From the IMG/VR virus record IMGVR_UViG_3300025141_000016, positions 1-64,000 of that record: 64,000 bases of DNA. The stretch is one strand, 5' to 3'. A program made the position numbers and the translations under genes. Source of the stretch: a virus. Below the pieces are notes generated by a model. That model was given only the letters and a program-made list of their open reading frames with translations, was not told where the DNA came from and did not search any database. Shown piece by piece: positions 7,665 through 30,617 of this stretch (its first letter is position 1; the number at the start of each line of letters is the position of its first letter).

Positions 7665-9014
7665 GTGGCTATAACATTCCCTACAACAGTCCAGTACAAG
7701 CGAAGACAACGACCCGCTCTGGAGGTTGGCACGCTTGGGCGCAGTCGCGTTTATCTTGTGCAGATGCCCCCTTCCCTGCTGCGGCTTGTCTACAAGGAGG
7801 GCAGGCGCATAGAGGGCTTGGGTGGGTCCAGCTATGACAAGGTGAAGTGGGATTCCGGCCCCAACGAGGGCAAAAAGGTAGCCATCAGGACATTGGAGGC
7901 TTGGGCTCAAAACGCGGAATCGGGTGGCCACGCGGGAAGCCAGGATGCCGCTCGCTACAGGGACCAGATTACGAACATTACAGGGAAGACCGCTATGAGC
8001 AACCCCGACGATTTTTGGACCAAACTGGCTACCGGACACACAAACACCGTGCTCGCTCACGGGATGGACCGCCATCTGGGTGCCCCCCTGGGTGACTCTT
8101 TTGAGGGAGTCCGTGTGTTGAGTGACGTGGGCCGTGCTGCTCATGCTCTTTCGCTTCCTGTGGCCGCTGGGGTCAAGGTGTCCTTTGCTGGAACCCTGGG
8201 TGCTCTCATGGCCCACGATGACTCGCCTGCCGATGGTGCCATCGGAGAGGTGGTCACGGTCAAGTCAGCTACGGGGGAGATCACCCACCATGATGGCAAG
8301 GTCTTCGTGAAGTGGGACGACGGTAAGTTCCGCCCCATCCACTCCGAGCACCTGCGTCTGGCTGGGTCCACGAGCAAGACTGCTTCCAAAGTCGTGAAGA
8401 TTCGCAAGGACGACAAGGGCAACGGCCTTTGGATTGAGGCGCGGGGGAAGCTGGAGGGACCGCTCACAGCGGCACAGGTGCTATCAAAGGTTGATAGCTA
8501 CCTTGATGACTCCGACGTGGTTGTCATGGGGCGTGATCATTCGCTGGGTCGGAACCAGACAGCGGTTCCCTACAGCAAAGCCCTCTATGTGATCCGCAAC
8601 AAGCGTGGGGATGTGATTGATGAGGGCTACTCCCTCAAAAACCTGTGGAATAAGTGGTTCGACCGGTTCCTTGGATGGAGGATGGCTTCCCAGGACAAGG
8701 AAGTCGCTGAACTGTTGAAGGCCAAGCCTGATAATGAGTTCCTACAGTCCGTGGAGGAGCAACTGGATGACGACCGCTCCCTGTCGGACAAGCAAGAGGA
8801 AGTTCTCGATGAGATTCAGGATGAGGTCAAGTCTGACAAGGCAGCTTCGTTCCGCGTGGGCACCCTTGGTGACCTCACGAACTTTTTGAAGGTTGCCGAG
8901 GGCAAGCTGATTCACACCAGTACCGCAGACCTGTGGTCCTATACGAAGGATGCGGATGGGGCTTTCCTCGTCTCACGCCTGTTTGACGATATGGGCGAGC
9001 CCTTGAAGGGGTAG
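7665..9014 (+). CDS. Head-region protein of unknown function
   Basis: A GTG at 7665 is preferred because TAGGAG (overlapping the previous stop) lies five bases upstream; a TTG one codon earlier is too close. The 449-residue product is unrecognised. The N-terminal half is mixed; around residues 180-230 an SH3-like stretch is suggested (GEVVTVKSATGEITHHDGKV); the C-terminal third is acidic and helical. It carries SKTASK, RMASQ and KAASF, variants of the peptide shared by head proteins here, near the borders of these segments. Likely a virion-internal or prohead protein (inference). Confidence 0.7.
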   Translation: MAITFPTTVQYKRRQRPALEVGTLGRSRVYLVQMPPSLLRLVYKEGRRIEGLGGSSYDKVKWDSGPNEGKKVAIRTLEAWAQNAESGGHAGSQDAARYRDQITNITGKTAMSNPDDFWTKLATGHTNTVLAHGMDRHLGAPLGDSFEGVRVLSDVGRAAHALSLPVAAGVKVSFAGTLGALMAHDDSPADGAIGEVVTVKSATGEITHHDGKVFVKWDDGKFRPIHSEHLRLAGSTSKTASKVVKIRKDDKGNGLWIEARGKLEGPLTAAQVLSKVDSYLDDSDVVVMGRDHSLGRNQTAVPYSKALYVIRNKRGDVIDEGYSLKNLWNKWFDRFLGWRMASQDKEVAELLKAKPDNEFLQSVEEQLDDDRSLSDKQEEVLDEIQDEVKSDKAASFRVGTLGDLTNFLKVAEGKLIHTSTADLWSYTKDADGAFLVSRLFDDMGEPLKG

Positions 9015-21054: not shown

Positions 21055-22431
21055 ATGCGCCGTCGTATGACTTGGAATGACACAGGGGATGCTCGGCAGC
21101 GTCGGGCCTCCAGTACCGAAACCCCCAACACGAAGAACGCCGAATGGGGCGAAGACCCCCATCCTGGCCCTTACGAGAACGGAGAGCACCCGGCCACCCC
21201 CGACGAGGAATCGTCTCACCCGGCAGCCAAGGCAGCAGCCCTGGAGCGCAAGGCGGCGAAGTGCATTCGCATCGCCACTGCTATGCTTGGTGAAGGCGCG
21301 ACCGTGGCCGCCATCGAAGATCAGGCTCTCGTGCTCATGGACCTCCCTGACCGCTCCATCAAGGCCAGCCTTTCCCGTATCGCCGGAGACGACGATATGG
21401 ACGAGGATCTGGACGACGATGATGCCGCCGCTGCGGAAGGTGTCGAGGAGGCCAAGGGCAAGAAAGCCTACGTTCGGATGCTGGAGCAGCGCGTTGCTCG
21501 GATGGAGCGTATCCTCACTCGTCTCGCAGACAGCGAAGACCCCGAGGGCGATGACGACGACGACGGCAGCGAAGATCCCGGTGAGGAGGCCAAGGGCAAG
21601 AAGGCCCGCGCTCTCCGCGCCAAGGCCCTCCGTATGCTCCGACTCGCTGACGAGGAAGAAGCATCTGACGAGGAAGAAGCATCCGACGAGGAGGAGGCCA
21701 AGGGCAAGAAAGCCCGCCGCCGCCGACTCGCTGATGACGAGGAGGCTTCCGACGAGGAGGCTTCCGACGAGGAGGCATCCGACGAGGAGGAGGCCAAGGG
21801 CAAGAAGGCCCGCGCTCTCCGCGCCAAGGCCCTCCGTATGCTCCGACTCGCTGACGAGGAGGAGGCTTCCGACGAGGAGGCTTCCGACGAGGAGGAGGCC
21901 AAGGGCAAGAAGTCGGCTGGATACATGGACGAGGAATCCATGCTGGACGAGATGTTGCTGGAGGAGATGCTTGCCGAGGAGTCCATGCACGAGGAAGGTC
22001 ACATCGTTGAGACTGCCGACGAGTCCATGGGCGACGAGATGGTCGAGGTCAGCATTGATCCCGTTGGTGACCCCATGGGACTCATGGAAGGCGACCTCAT
22101 GGCCGAGGACGAGATGATGGTTCTTGCCAAGCTGTTCGGAAAGGAAGGCGGCGAGGCTGACGAGGACAAGGCTGAAAAGGAAGACCACGACAAGGGTGCC
22201 ATCAAGGATGATGAGGACCACATCGCGGATCTGGAGGAAGACAAGGATGAGGACAAGGAGGACTTGGCAAAGGAAGAGTCCAAGGGCAAGAAAGCTGCCC
22301 GTCGTCCCCAGCCCAAGCGAGCCAGCGCAGGCGCGACCCGTCTGGGCGGTGTCTCCAAGGAAGCCGCTTCCGAGATCAGTGACCTCTCCCAGCTTTGGGA
22401 GTCTGCCCCTGACGTGAGCAAGTTCTTCTAA
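21055..22431 (+). CDS. Highly charged repeat protein, candidate scaffold/prohead core
   Basis: Starts at ATG 21055 after AATAGGAGA. The 458-residue protein is dominated from about residue 115 by tandem units of acidic DEEEASDEEEA blocks and basic EEAKGKKARALRAKA blocks, repeated about five times. Another acid-rich stretch with ESMLDEMLLEEML repeats follows. Such a charged, helical, low-complexity protein between protease and capsid genes is the usual place and composition of a scaffold, though no homologous domain is recognised. The end (ASEISDLSQLW) is less charged, as expected for a capsid-binding tail. A terminator follows. Confidence 0.75.
   Translation: MRRRMTWNDTGDARQRRASSTETPNTKNAEWGEDPHPGPYENGEHPATPDEESSHPAAKAAALERKAAKCIRIATAMLGEGATVAAIEDQALVLMDLPDRSIKASLSRIAGDDDMDEDLDDDDAAAAEGVEEAKGKKAYVRMLEQRVARMERILTRLADSEDPEGDDDDDGSEDPGEEAKGKKARALRAKALRMLRLADEEEASDEEEASDEEEAKGKKARRRRLADDEEASDEEASDEEASDEEEAKGKKARALRAKALRMLRLADEEEASDEEASDEEEAKGKKSAGYMDEESMLDEMLLEEMLAEESMHEEGHIVETADESMGDEMVEVSIDPVGDPMGLMEGDLMAEDEMMVLAKLFGKEGGEADEDKAEKEDHDKGAIKDDEDHIADLEEDKDEDKEDLAKEESKGKKAARRPQPKRASAGATRLGGVSKEAASEISDLSQLWESAPDVSKFF
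21592..21913 (+). repeat. Imperfect tandem repeats within the scaffold candidate
   Basis: Repeated copies of GAGGAGGCCAAGGGCAAGAA with GACGAGGAGGCTTCC-type units; the stretch coding ARALRAKALRMLRLAD occurs twice (about 21605 and 21809). Confidence 0.8.
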
Positions 22432-22684: not shown

Positions 22685-23323
22685 ATGGCTTTGCTTGGAC
22701 AGGCATCGGGTGGTTGGACCGAGAGTTCTTCGGCGCTTCGTATTCTGCATGTCGGAATCCGAAACACCGTCGGTATCCTCACGGCTGACGCATTCACCCA
22801 GACAAACCCCGTTGGCATCAGCAGCAGCGGTTCTTTCTCAACCTCCAACGGTATGAACACGGCCACCCTTGGTGTGCTCGGTGGTTCTGTTGCCTACGCT
22901 CGCCCGGATGGCGGCTCCAACGAAATCGGTGGGCCTTCCAATACTGGCGCTGCGGCCAGCATCGCCACTCCCCCCGTCGGAGTCAATGACGTTCGTCCAC
23001 TCGGCGTGTTCCTGAACACGGCAGTCGGCCTCGCCTACGAGAACACCCCTGGTGTTGCTTCTGGCAAGGGACCGTATGTCTCGGGTCAGGGAACCTACGC
23101 CAACAGTCTCTTTGAGTCACAGACTCTTGCGGCTGGCTTCGCGGCTCTCACCTACACGACCGGTGAGCATCTGTACAGTTCGATGAACGGCTATCTCACG
23201 AATGTCGTCACCGACCGCTACGGCCTTTTCCTTCCTGCTGGTGCTGAAACCACCGTCATCGGTATCTTGAAGATGCCTGCCGACGCGGTTCAGGCTGAAA
23301 TGGTCTACGACCAGCGCATCTGA
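22685..23323 (+). CDS. Candidate capsid decoration/stabilisation protein
   Basis: The 212-residue protein starts after ATTAGGAGATCATC. It is rich in Gly, Ala, Ser and Thr with few charges, consistent with a beta-rich surface protein, and immediately precedes the major capsid gene, where head decoration proteins are often coded. No specific motif is visible. The strong ribosome binding site suggests high expression. Confidence 0.65.
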   Translation: MALLGQASGGWTESSSALRILHVGIRNTVGILTADAFTQTNPVGISSSGSFSTSNGMNTATLGVLGGSVAYARPDGGSNEIGGPSNTGAAASIATPPVGVNDVRPLGVFLNTAVGLAYENTPGVASGKGPYVSGQGTYANSLFESQTLAAGFAALTYTTGEHLYSSMNGYLTNVVTDRYGLFLPAGAETTVIGILKMPADAVQAEMVYDQRI

Positions 23324-23353
23324 TCAACCACCTTCCCACATTTGGAGACAATC

Positions 23354-24226
23354 ATGTCCGTATCGAACTCTGTGAAGGCCAAGCTGATCAGCGACTACAT
23401 TAGTACCGCCGCTGGTCGGGCCAAGTTGGCCGCCTCAATGACTCAACCCCTCCGGCTTCGCCGGGACTACCATAGTGTAGGTAGAAAGACCTTTTTGGTC
23501 GAGCAGTTGCCAGATGGCGCTCTGCCTATCTACGATAAAGACCCCGATGTTACGGCATTCGTGGTCGGTGAGGAAGGTGAGAACATCATCGCCGTCACCA
23601 AGCCCCGTCGTGTCATCTTCCCTCTCTTTGAGATCGCCTCCAACCCGGAGATCCCACTGACGCAGGTGAAGGAACGTCGCTTCGATCTCATCGAGCGGTC
23701 GCAGGACCTCGCTCGTGCCCAGATCCAGGCTGCTGAAGACGAGCGTGTCTTCGCCACCCTCGATGCTGTCGCTGCCAACGGCTTCGACTCGGTTGGTGCG
23801 GTCAACGCCGACACCGCCGTCGTCGCACCGATCAGTGGTGACGTGCTCGCGGATGCTTTCTCGCTCATCGAACGCCACGATCTGCGTGTTGCTCGCGTCT
23901 TTATGAACGCTCGCGACTACGCCGATCTGCGGAAGTTTGGCCGGGACATTCTCGACATCGAAACCCAGCGCGACCTGTTGAAGACTGGTCTGATGGCAAC
24001 CCTTTGGGGAGCCCAGATCATCGTCAGCCGCCTCGTGCCGGTCGGCACCGTGTACGTCTGCTGTGAGCCCGAGATGTTCGGTCGGATGCCTGTCCGTACC
24101 GAGTTGACGGTCCTCTCGGCTGACGATCCCAAGGCGCGGACCATCGGGTTCAGTTGCTTTGAGAACCTGGGCATCGGTTGTTTCAACCCGCGTGGCCTCG
24201 CTCGTCTGACTGTCACCCGTCCGTAG
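23354..24226 (+). CDS. Major capsid protein, HK97-like fold
   Basis: The ATG at 23354 follows TTGGAGACAATC. The 290-residue protein has the features of a compact HK97-type capsid protein: a helical N-terminal arm, a long spine-helix region (RFDLIERSQDLARAQIQAAEDERVF), a peripheral domain with FMNARDYADLRKFGRDI and a central beta region (LWGAQIIVSRLVPVGTVYV). Near residue 30 the sequence AKLAASMTQ resembles the [KR]-x-A-[AS] peptide of other head proteins and may mark removal of an N-terminal propeptide (inference). Position after protease and scaffold and before a strong terminator supports the assignment. Confidence 0.82.
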   Translation: MSVSNSVKAKLISDYISTAAGRAKLAASMTQPLRLRRDYHSVGRKTFLVEQLPDGALPIYDKDPDVTAFVVGEEGENIIAVTKPRRVIFPLFEIASNPEIPLTQVKERRFDLIERSQDLARAQIQAAEDERVFATLDAVAANGFDSVGAVNADTAVVAPISGDVLADAFSLIERHDLRVARVFMNARDYADLRKFGRDILDIETQRDLLKTGLMATLWGAQIIVSRLVPVGTVYVCCEPEMFGRMPVRTELTVLSADDPKARTIGFSCFENLGIGCFNPRGLARLTVTRP

Positions 24227-24256
24227 TCCCTGACTACTCGGTCGTTTTGACCCTGG

Positions 24257-24287
24257 AACCCCTACCGGACTTGCTCCGGTAGGGGTT
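24257..24287. terminator. Strong bidirectional terminator after the capsid gene
   Basis: AACCCCTACCGGA (24257-24269) pairs perfectly with TCCGGTAGGGGTT (24275-24287); T runs follow on the plus strand. It lies between convergent genes and could serve both. Confidence 0.85.
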
Positions 24288-24299
24288 TCCTCGTCTTGG

Positions 24300-25043
24300 T
24301 TACCGTAGAGAGGGCGGGAGCCGTAGGTCTTCGGTGGCCATCAGGAGTTCGCGGGCAGGCCCGTAGGGCTCTGTGAACCCGAACGTCTCGATGAGGGGGG
24401 CATCCGCCTTCGCAACCCATCCCAGCATTTCCTCGTCGTACAGCTTGGCTGCATCGGGGATGTGGTGTTGGGGTCGGTGGGAAGCGCAGTTCTGGGATTG
24501 GATGGCTTCAATCATCTCGCGGGGCCTGTTGAGTAAGAGGGCCATTCCCTCTTTCAGCCTGGAGGAGTCGAGGAACATGGCTGGGCGGGGAGGTCTGCCG
24601 TAAACGTACCGGAAGGTCCAACTACACAACCCAAGCCCTGACCCCAAGTAGTTGTTGAGGGCACCCTCGTAGTGGTCCTGCATCACATCCCAGACCACAG
24701 TGAAGTTGTCGGGCATCTCTTCCACGTCGAGGGGGTGGGTGAGCCCGAACAACACGTCGCGGAACTCGTTGCTCCCGTTGCCAAACTTGATCAGGTCGTC
24801 CTTCATCCCCCATAGACAGTGCTGATAGAACGACAGATACCATGACCATGGGTCGCGGACGGTTCCGAACAACATCCGATTCTGCAACGCGCTGACCGGG
24901 ATCTCACTCGGGGGTCCGTGTTTCTTCGGCCCTTGGACACAGATGCCGCCCACATCAGGGATGCGGACCATAATCCTCCCGACGGTGGTCCCTCCTGTCT
25001 TTGGCATGTGCCAGTAGGCGAGGTTGTCGGTGACGTAAATCAT
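24300..25043 (-). CDS. Sulfotransferase-like protein
   Basis: The 247-residue antisense protein has both PAPS-binding signatures of sulfotransferases. The 5'-phosphosulfate loop is HMPKTGGTT (residues 12-20), and the 3'-phosphate motif is GTVRDPWSWYLSFY, with Arg63 and Ser71 at the expected R-x7-S spacing. Such enzymes move sulfate from PAPS to a hydroxyl or amine on sugars or proteins. The target is unknown; host surface glycans or a virion glycan are possibilities. It is a single gene facing against the head operon, with its own ribosome binding site (AAGAGAACC). This suggests an independently acquired, separately controlled accessory function. Fold assignment is confident, substrate is not. 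Confidence 0.85.
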   Translation of the reverse strand: MIYVTDNLAYWHMPKTGGTTVGRIMVRIPDVGGICVQGPKKHGPPSEIPVSALQNRMLFGTVRDPWSWYLSFYQHCLWGMKDDLIKFGNGSNEFRDVLFGLTHPLDVEEMPDNFTVVWDVMQDHYEGALNNYLGSGLGLCSWTFRYVYGRPPRPAMFLDSSRLKEGMALLLNRPREMIEAIQSQNCASHRPQHHIPDAAKLYDEEMLGWVAKADAPLIETFGFTEPYGPARELLMATEDLRLPPSLR

Positions 25044-25163
25044 AAGGTTCTCTTGGTGGGTGCGTACTGCTAAATGTTACCCGCCGTGTGAAGGTATGAG
25101 CCGACACCCTCTCGTGGCGGGTACAAGTATAGGTGAGCGTGTAGGTACAGAGATGGAGGCATC

Positions 25164-25328
25164 ATGGCGTTCCGAAAAACAAGCGTTGCCGTGGAACCCC
25201 CCACGCCAGTTGACCTTCCGGCCCCCGCCGTCGGGGAAATCCGTGATGACGGGAAGGTCTGGGATGGGGGGAAGTGGATCCCACAGGATGAGTGGAAAGC
25301 ACGAGAAATGGACCAAGGCGCAACCTAA
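25164..25328 (+). CDS. Small protein, 54 residues
   Basis: ATG at 25164 is preceded by GATGGAGGCATC, a good ribosome binding site. The product is Pro-rich at the N-terminus and has a WDGGKWIPQDEW motif near the C-terminus, typical of small virion-associated phage proteins. Its TAA is directly followed by the ATG of the next gene. Function unknown. Confidence 0.65.
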   Translation: MAFRKTSVAVEPPTPVDLPAPAVGEIRDDGKVWDGGKWIPQDEWKAREMDQGAT

Positions 25329-25640
25329 ATGACGCTTATGAGCCTGCTTGCGGCCTACGGCCTCTGCTTTGGCCTGATGAATGACAAGGCCAAGTGGATC
25401 ACCGATAGGCTGATCGCCCTCCCACTACGCAAGGACGGGGAGGGGGCGACCCTCTTTGGCCGGATGTTCGCGTGCCCGTATTGCACGGGGTTTCACGCAG
25501 GATGGGTTGTGTGGGTAGGGGTGTCACCTGAAGTGGTTGGGAGTTTGGTCTGGGCCATTGGCATCCTGACGTTTGCCTTTGCCTCGGCTGCTTTCTGCTA
25601 CGCCTTGGACACCGCCTTGCGGTGGATAGAGGAAAGATGA
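25329..25640 (+). CDS. Small membrane protein, DUF1360-like
   Basis: The 103-residue protein has a hydrophobic N-terminus, a cytosolic loop with FACPYCTGFHAGW (a CxxC motif characteristic of the DUF1360 phage/bacterial family), and two further hydrophobic segments (WVGVSPEVVGSLVWAIGILTFAFASAAFCYAL). ATG at 25329 directly abuts the previous stop; a second ATG lies three codons in. It is coupled to the next gene by an ATGA overlap. Role unknown, probably in the host inner membrane. Confidence 0.7.
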   Translation: MTLMSLLAAYGLCFGLMNDKAKWITDRLIALPLRKDGEGATLFGRMFACPYCTGFHAGWVVWVGVSPEVVGSLVWAIGILTFAFASAAFCYALDTALRWIEER

Positions 25641-28374: not shown

Positions 28375-28575
28375 TTACTGGCTGGCGGTATCGCCCGTAT
28401 CGGTGTCCGTATCGGTATCCGTATCGGTATCCGTATCGGTGTCCGTATCGGTATCCGTATCGGTATCCGTATCGGTGTCGGACTCGGCGGTGTCAGAGGG
28501 TTCGGTTCCGGTGTCGGAATCCTTGTCTCCACACGCTGCCAAGAGAACCGCCGTAAGGAACAGGTACTTGTACAT
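28375..28575 (-). CDS. Small lipoprotein with Asp-Thr repeat
   Basis: The 66-residue antisense product starts at the ATG at 28575, preceded by GGAGATGCACC on the minus strand; an extension to 28608 lacks a site. MYKYLFLTAVLLAAC is a lipoprotein signal with lipobox LAAC, so the mature protein would begin at Cys15 and be lipidated. The mature part is CGDKDSDTGTEPSDTAESDT followed by about ten DT repeats (coded by GTATCG/GTATCC-type hexamers). Surface lipoproteins ending in DT repeats are common in Myxococcota, which suggests host origin. Possible roles are superinfection exclusion or an outer-membrane lysis function. Both are inferences. Confidence 0.8.
   Translation of the reverse strand: MYKYLFLTAVLLAACGDKDSDTGTEPSDTAESDTDTDTDTDTDTDTDTDTDTDTDTDTDTGDTASQ
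28403..28477. repeat. Hexamer repeat GTATCG/GTATCC/GTGTCC
   Basis: About a dozen near-identical hexamers coding the Asp-Thr tail of the lipoprotein on the minus strand; prone to length change. Confidence 0.85.
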
Positions 28576-28688: not shown

Positions 28689-30617
28689 GTGTCTGTTGTT
28701 GACCCTGTTCAAATCGTGGCCCGCTACCTCAAAGTGGCCGACCTCGCACCCCCTTTGGGGTATCCGGGTGGGTCATGCCACCTGATGGAGCGGATACGCG
28801 AGGAGGTGCGGAACCCCTCACTCCGAGAGGTGATGGTTGACAACCACCAGAACCAAGAGGATGGGTACGCTCGTGGGGAGGAGAGGGCGATCTATGATGA
28901 GTTCGATGAAGGGCCGATTCGTGGAACGTCCTTCAAGAAAGTCCTCATCACCCCTCACACCCAATACCGCATGGACCTGCGAGGGGTCACGCTAAAGGAT
29001 CTTGCACGCTTCTTCCAGGCGCTCCAACAGGAGTGGAACAAGGATCGGTCAAAGGGGAACACCTACTGGACACGCAAGCTGGAAATGCGCGGAAAGCAAC
29101 AGAAGGCCACCCTCAACAACCTCACCGTCGCCTTCCGGGTGCTGAACTTTGAGCCTCCCAGCGGGTCGGGGCGCACCAAAACCAAGGCCAGGATCGAGGT
29201 GATGGTCCACACCGCGTTCTGGAAGGGGCGCAAGAACCCGTCTCCTGTTCCCGAGAGTTCCTGTCAAGGTTGGGAGGGGTGGTCAAAGGAGTACCCGAGT
29301 GGTCAAGGGCTTGACCGGCTGTTCCCGAAGCGGGTAGCGGCTCGGTATGCGGATCGCATAGCCTCTCCCTCTGGGTTCATGTCCGAATACAAGGGGAAGA
29401 CCTGGGATAACCCCCTGGACCCCAGGATGCGTGTGTGGTCCTTCCAGAGAGACGGGGAGGATATGCCCCTCATCACCACCGAAATAGAAGCCAGCCGCTT
29501 TGATGGGGAGCCCGCGATCTGGTTGAAGGCTCTCATCTCTCCCCAAAAGAGGGGGACTGGAATGGCCTCTTCCATCTTGAAGATGATTACAGCGATGGCA
29601 GACAAGCATGACACCCTCGTCTACCTCACCGCGAAGCCCATGCCTGTTTGGGGGGCTGATAACCTCCTTTCCACATCCCAACTAAAGTCTTGGTACAAGA
29701 GGAACGGTTGGGTCCAGGCGCAGGAATACGGGGACATGATGGTGCGCTACCCCAAGGGTAAGACCGCCGATCTATCGCCCCCTCTCGGCTTCCCAGGCGG
29801 TCCCTGTCAGGTCATCGAGCGGATTGATGAGGAGATCCATGACCCAGGGTTGCGTGACCGTCTGGTGGACCAAGTAGAGGACGGCACTTCCCTGTCGAAC
29901 TCCAACGCTGCCAAGGTTTATGAACTGGAGGCAGAGCCAGGAGTTCCACGCTCCAAGTTCAAGAAGATCCTCATCACCCCCCACGCGCAGTACCGCATGG
30001 ACCAACGTGGAATCACGGTAGGTGATCTTCGGGTTGCCCTCATGGGGTTCGCGAAGGCGTGGAACGACGCACGTTCCACACAGAGCGTACAGGCTCGCAT
30101 GTGGGAAGACGACATGGCCTGGGGCGAGAAGATCGAGTGGGTTGACCCTCGTATCGGTTTGCAGATCGTCTTCACAGCCAGCAAGGGCACCGTTCGCCTC
30201 GTGACTGCTTTCTGGAAAGGTCAGTCTGACCCCCGACCGGTGGACGAGGAGTCGTGTGGGGTCCACCGCCATGCGGGAGGGGCTGGGGATTGCTACGAGG
30301 CCAACGGGCGGTATTTTATGAACCAAGCGGTCTTTCCCGGTTCGGATAAGGGGATGCGGCTGGTTCACGGTGAGGTCACAGGACAGGGCTCCCTGTCGGG
30401 GGTCAACTATGGCCACGCCTGGATTGAGGACGGGAACACTGTGATCGACAAGTCCAATGGCCGGAACGTCAGGATGCCCAAAGACGTGTACTACGCCTTG
30501 GGGCAGATTGACCGGAACGACAACATCCATGTCTACAAGCCAGAGGAGTTCCGCCGCAAGGTGATGCAGCATGAACATTGGGGTCCGTGGGATCTCCGCA
30601 CCTCGACGGGGCTTTGA
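28689..30617 (+). CDS. Polyprotein: duplicated DUF4258-like modules flanking a GNAT domain, plus C-terminal HAWxE domain
   Basis: Starts at GTG 28689 after CTGGAG. The 642-residue protein has a module present twice (about residues 18-200 and 361-525): PPLGYPGGSC/PPLGFPGGPC, then ITPHTQYRMDLRGVT/ITPHAQYRMDQRGIT. It resembles DUF4258/toxin-like RNase folds (His-...-Arg-Met-x-x-RG). Between them, around 230-355, lies a GNAT acetyltransferase-like domain with the acetyl-CoA loop SPQKRGTGMASSI (about 283-295) and LKSWYKRNGW. The C-terminus has GHAWIEDG and HWGPWDL, a separate domain often found in phage head proteins, role unknown. QIVARY, KRVAARYADRIAS and GKTADLS mark the borders. The next gene's ATG overlaps the stop region. 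Confidence 0.8.
   Translation: MSVVDPVQIVARYLKVADLAPPLGYPGGSCHLMERIREEVRNPSLREVMVDNHQNQEDGYARGEERAIYDEFDEGPIRGTSFKKVLITPHTQYRMDLRGVTLKDLARFFQALQQEWNKDRSKGNTYWTRKLEMRGKQQKATLNNLTVAFRVLNFEPPSGSGRTKTKARIEVMVHTAFWKGRKNPSPVPESSCQGWEGWSKEYPSGQGLDRLFPKRVAARYADRIASPSGFMSEYKGKTWDNPLDPRMRVWSFQRDGEDMPLITTEIEASRFDGEPAIWLKALISPQKRGTGMASSILKMITAMADKHDTLVYLTAKPMPVWGADNLLSTSQLKSWYKRNGWVQAQEYGDMMVRYPKGKTADLSPPLGFPGGPCQVIERIDEEIHDPGLRDRLVDQVEDGTSLSNSNAAKVYELEAEPGVPRSKFKKILITPHAQYRMDQRGITVGDLRVALMGFAKAWNDARSTQSVQARMWEDDMAWGEKIEWVDPRIGLQIVFTASKGTVRLVTAFWKGQSDPRPVDEESCGVHRHAGGAGDCYEANGRYFMNQAVFPGSDKGMRLVHGEVTGQGSLSGVNYGHAWIEDGNTVIDKSNGRNVRMPKDVYYALGQIDRNDNIHVYKPEEFRRKVMQHEHWGPWDLRTSTGL

Follow-up and report, generated by a model that had tools for sequence, protein, structure and literature searches.

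A predicted phage sulfotransferase family that recurs in head modules whose capsid protein is unrelated

A predicted sulfotransferase is encoded antisense to, and downstream of, the major capsid gene of a large phage, and sequence comparison places members of its family in the terminase-capsid module of other phages whose capsid protein is unrelated, a recurrence that is new here. The DNA analysed (the window) comprises bases 1-64000 of a 297,104-base IMG/VR virus record. Its sulfotransferase-family ORF (24300-25043, minus strand; 247 amino acids, ATG start, stop codon counted in) contains no internal stops and aligns end to end with its relatives, conserved PPSL C-terminus included. The protein falls in a family of its own, made up mostly of phage members and marked by the signature H...RDPWSW, for which we found no earlier name. 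We put forward, tentatively, that in two or more unrelated lineages of tailed phages the virions are sulfated by a dedicated phage enzyme whose gene adjoins that of the capsid protein; no report of virion sulfation was found.

Sulfotransferase genes in phages are usually classed among the auxiliary metabolic genes, with unclear function, and a search of the open-access literature for phage-encoded sulfotransferases by name yielded no paper. OM43 phage genomes are reported to encode PF13469 sulfotransferase proteins, with their function stated to be unclear (PMC10580990). These proteins and PHROG 3347 ('Galactose-3-O-sulfotransferase') resemble the present case in being sulfotransferases borne by phages. 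They differ in sequence: PF13469 (Sulfotransfer_3) gives no match in the whole record that holds the window, both control genomes being positive, and PHROG 3347 matches the window protein weakly, over 46 residues (E=0.0024). A phage family recurring beside capsid genes offers a specific, testable target.

Sequence motifs and predicted fold

Relatives were gathered stepwise, from the neighbours of capsid genes, then by sulfotransferase-profile scans of viral and genome contigs, and then from whole records. The 14-row family alignment reveals invariant H42, R63-W68, S71, and G138, with K15 near-invariant. The predicted 5'-phosphosulfate-binding loop, MPKTGGTT (residues 13-20, including K15; 24984..25007, minus strand), pairs with FLHIQKTGGTTFGRHL of the heparan sulfate 6-O-sulfotransferase HS6ST3 when the profile is compared with PDB sequences, and the predicted 3'-phosphate-binding motif, R63-D-P-W-S-W-Y-L-S71 (24831..24857, minus strand), pairs with RDPVSRYLSEW. 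His42 (codon 24918..24920, minus strand), conserved in 14 of 14 members, is the candidate catalytic base, a role filled by His or Glu in sulfotransferases (PMC11625862). The Pfam family PF03567 (Sulfotransfer_2) matches residues 5-76 of the window protein (E=0.002), at 18.8 bits against a gathering cut-off of 22, and just 2 of the 14 family members. The phosphate-binding consensus given for PF03567 is PXXRXXS (PMC11625862), from which the window segment PWSWYLS departs as PXXWXXS, with W for R.

The AF2 model built from the 14-row alignment (pLDDT 85.4, pTM 0.87) arranges the 5' PAPS element as a strand (E8-11), a loop with K15, and a helix (H18-27), and the 3'-phosphate element as a strand (E57-62), R63, and a helix (H65-79) carrying S71. 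A Foldseek search of the PDB returned PAPS-dependent sulfotransferases or the same-fold retinol dehydratase for 50 of the 50 matches listed, none below E=0.001, with HS6ST3 as the top match among those listed (E 0.04, prob 0.84). HS6ST3 is also the best PDB sequence match of the 14-row profile (5t03, E=0.0019), the two PAPS motifs aligning in order and each being weak alone. The two proteins differ in that identity is ~18% and the TM-score weak (5t03/5t05), the window protein has RDPWSW where HS6ST3 has RDPVSR, and the window enzyme is phage-encoded, without a known glycosaminoglycan substrate. Searches with the single window sequence gave chance matches alone in the PDB (adiponectin, Dicer) and no relative among viral sequences; alignments were required. 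A model from an 8-row alignment was discarded in favour of the 14-row model, as its pLDDT was 48 and its fold search meaningless. With a confident 14-row model and sulfotransferase-fold proteins in all listed matches, each individually weak, we take the predicted fold class as well supported, and we consider sulfotransferase activity highly probable. The first-pass annotation, which had called a sulfotransferase with intact PAPS motifs from the window alone, is thus backed by profile, fold, and conservation, with K15, R63, and S71 placed as it had claimed.

Positions in phage head modules

The major capsid (major head) protein gene of the window (23342..24226, plus strand; PHROG 2522, E=9.1e-55) encodes a protein that shares 83% identity with its counterpart in an uncultured 485-kb phage (LR745208), 50% with that in Tunturiibacter phage Tunturi_5, and 41% with that in Bacillus phage G. 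These matches assign the source, a large phage, to the phage-G capsid lineage. The same assignment confirms that the sulfotransferase gene faces against the head operon, as first proposed.

Of the 47 capsid loci that extend 3 kb or more downstream, six carry a sulfotransferase in this slot (L011, L013, L014-L017), on the minus strand every time. These copies are of two sequence types (L011 equals L013; L014-L016 are identical and L017 is close to L014), and they are ~50% identical to the window protein, likewise antisense and downstream of the capsid gene. The slot can instead hold an ORF containing a homing-endonuclease domain (17 loci; LAGLIDADG_2, E=2.6e-19), a deoxynucleoside kinase (15), a small zinc-ribbon-like protein (8), or fibre-like proteins. 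The zinc-ribbon-like gene and the sulfotransferase co-occur in none of the 47 loci, and each is found after the kinase gene, on the strand opposite to it. The two therefore seem to replace each other, although the numbers are small. The window slot is a reduced version consisting of the capsid gene, the sulfotransferase, an inverted 54-amino-acid ORF, and the ORF n1. The sulfotransferase gene had been described as isolated, which holds within the window and fails in L011, where it follows other minus-strand genes, fibre-like ones included.

In three loci, the capsid gene is directly followed by a long ORF with a LAGLIDADG_2 domain (L003:11038-13032, L007:7276-9348, and L009:8302-10296), the C-terminal stretch of which resembles a DNA methyltransferase by eye (TSPPY motif). 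This ORF has homologues behind the capsid gene in 17 of the 47 loci.

Searched as whole records, 3 of the 21 records reached via capsid loci hold a sulfotransferase. The gene is dispensable, since most large related records are without it, some of them up to 376 kb (records may be incomplete).

A second contig set, retrieved by sulfotransferase sequence alone, revealed the gene in a different head module. The sulfotransferase lies shortly after a putative capsid gene in four contigs (L115, L117, L119, and L121) and shortly before one in a fifth (L118), in each case within a run of the terminase-portal-scaffold-capsid type; short IMG/VR contigs with hallmark genes may be over-represented, which would inflate this capsid linkage. 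A terminase was identified in L115 and L118, the latter also giving a weak major-head match, and the capsid proteins of L115, L117, and L118 are mutually homologous. Gene order and sequence resemblance are the basis for the portal and scaffold labels, as they are for the capsid assignments in L119 and L121. A tblastn search of these sulfotransferase-found contigs with the window capsid protein gave no match. The five contigs probably represent one lineage and are counted as one independent case.

A diverged copy directly follows a large terminase gene (L100). Counterexamples also exist: another copy sits in a glycan-like, sugar-modification-like locus on a viral contig and is not capsid-linked (L089). 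In L088, no window-type capsid gene was seen within the 16 kb examined; its sulfotransferase relative (7962-8630) adjoins a deoxynucleoside kinase gene and a homologue of the 54-amino-acid gene, and its 5' PAPS loop reads MFETEE, a copy possibly inactive or repurposed. The window gene, like those of some relatives, is encoded among virion genes, which does not hold for every member: the related 288-kb phage record G009 carries two diverged copies far from its capsid gene (L103 and L104; C1:22302-23009 and 199456-199980), one adjoining a transglycosylase-like gene and the other near a holin-like gene.

Candidate acceptors

The window ORF would encode a PAPS-dependent O-sulfotransferase in which K15 and the 5' loop would hold the sulfate-side phosphate of PAPS, R63 and S71 would hold its 3'-phosphate, and H42 would deprotonate the acceptor hydroxyl for in-line sulfate transfer. 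No APS kinase was found in the 297-kb record, the control being positive in 11 of 14 genomes, so the enzyme probably uses host-supplied PAPS. Its placement in the head module suggests late expression and a virion acceptor; the enzyme would probably act late in infection and most likely add sulfate to a capsid or fibre protein, or to a glycan thereon, altering the surface charge or recognition of the virion. That the gene turns up again in the head module of a second, unrelated group of phages lends further support to this target. We judge the virion the leading candidate for the main acceptor, at somewhat less than an even chance, and a more likely target than the host envelope.

Glycosyltransferases modify the capsid and tail tube of mycobacteriophages (PMC11600133; PMC12619734). 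If the acceptor is the virion, the two systems would be alike in that a phage enzyme modifies capsid or tail proteins, and unlike in that sugar is added there (PMC11600133) and a predicted sulfate here, by a different protein family. Phage particles are known to be glycosylated; virion sulfation would be a further modification, one that changes their charge, and could influence how the particles adsorb, how stable they are, or how they are recognised.

The closest competitor, a plausible reading that we rank below a virion acceptor, is that host surface polysaccharide (O-antigen or capsule) is sulfated during infection, which would change receptor properties and limit superinfection or keep progeny from readsorbing to debris. 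A glycan acceptor is suggested by the closest relatives in bacteria, whose genes are located in polysaccharide loci next to those for glycosyltransferases, ManC, an ABC-2 exporter, and a further sulfotransferase, and the sugar-modification-like locus of L089 on a viral contig is in keeping with this. Neither of two glycosyltransferase families (PF00535, PF00534) was found in the record, which would make a host glycan the ready acceptor. Against this stand the deep split of the bacterial rows from the phage rows and the placement in the head modules of two groups of phages whose capsid proteins are unrelated, which points to late expression with virion proteins.

It is unlikely that the protein has no surface-modification role and instead binds PAPS or PAP, or sulfates a small molecule or nucleotide. 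The sequence is compatible with small-molecule acceptors, and the 5' loop is altered in some relatives (MFETEE in L088, PHTGAS in L100, and PRTGS in L104, versus PKTGG in the window), but the window copy keeps every motif residue. Its close relatives are also under purifying selection: NG86 dN/dS is ~0.17 between L014 and L017, a close pair, and 0.10 between L011 and L014, for which synonymous sites approach saturation.

Origin and surroundings of the gene

The sulfotransferase gene matches its genome in composition, with a GC content of 0.591 versus 0.592 for the window and a codon usage typical of the phage (z +0.65). The tree separates the phage rows from three bacterial rows with 100/99 support, amid long branches and many unresolved forks. 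The bacterial relatives found are distant ones alone; many further bacterial matches were partial, covering a single motif region, and were left out. Among 50,697 phage records, tblastn with the window protein (E<=10) gave five chance-level matches and no relative, and three other family members (E<=0.01) gave none. Composition, synteny, and tree together argue against the recent import proposed in the first-pass annotation, and the gene reads as an old, established phage gene, long resident in a variable slot. That the gene came from a bacterium recently and is perhaps non-functional, as its antisense orientation and patchy presence among related phages might suggest, is largely refuted and very improbable given phage-like GC and codon usage, ~50%-identical relatives sharing slot and strand, and the distance of all bacterial relatives found.

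Between the convergent capsid and sulfotransferase genes lies a GC-rich hairpin (24255..24289) of -28 to -29 kcal/mol, with z-scores of -4.6 and -5.5 on the two strands and a poor T-tract on the sulfotransferase side. A hairpin occupies the equivalent capsid-gene site in 13 of the 13 relatives inspected, most of them without a sulfotransferase there, and it therefore belongs to the capsid gene. This rules out a dedicated bidirectional terminator bounding the sulfotransferase gene, as had been read from this strong hairpin.

On its other side, a divergent intergenic region of 120 bp (25044..25163) is the expected site of the sulfotransferase promoter; no sigma-70-type promoter site was found in it. 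Beyond this lies the 54-amino-acid ORF (25164..25328, plus strand), a homologue of a small minus-strand gene of the relatives (tblastn, 52%, E=5.6e-13) whose orientation is inverted in the window. The far edge of the slot is formed by n1 (25329..25640, plus strand), a 103-amino-acid ORF conserved in the relatives.

Upstream of the capsid gene, the protein encoded at 22685-23323 was tested as a homologue of the phage G gp26 'capsid decoration' protein, which was not supported (E 0.05). Two genes upstream of the capsid gene, a 458-amino-acid ORF (21055-22431) contains acidic repeats of the DEEASDEEA type and several tandem repeats of 12-18 bases. Further downstream, a 642-amino-acid ORF (28689-30617) without a Pfam match comprises two copies of a ~180-amino-acid domain that are 37% identical (E=1e-34). 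A 36-base tandem repeat at 28395-28479, present in 2.4 perfect copies, encodes a TDTDTD run on the minus strand within a small ORF that has a lipoprotein-like start.
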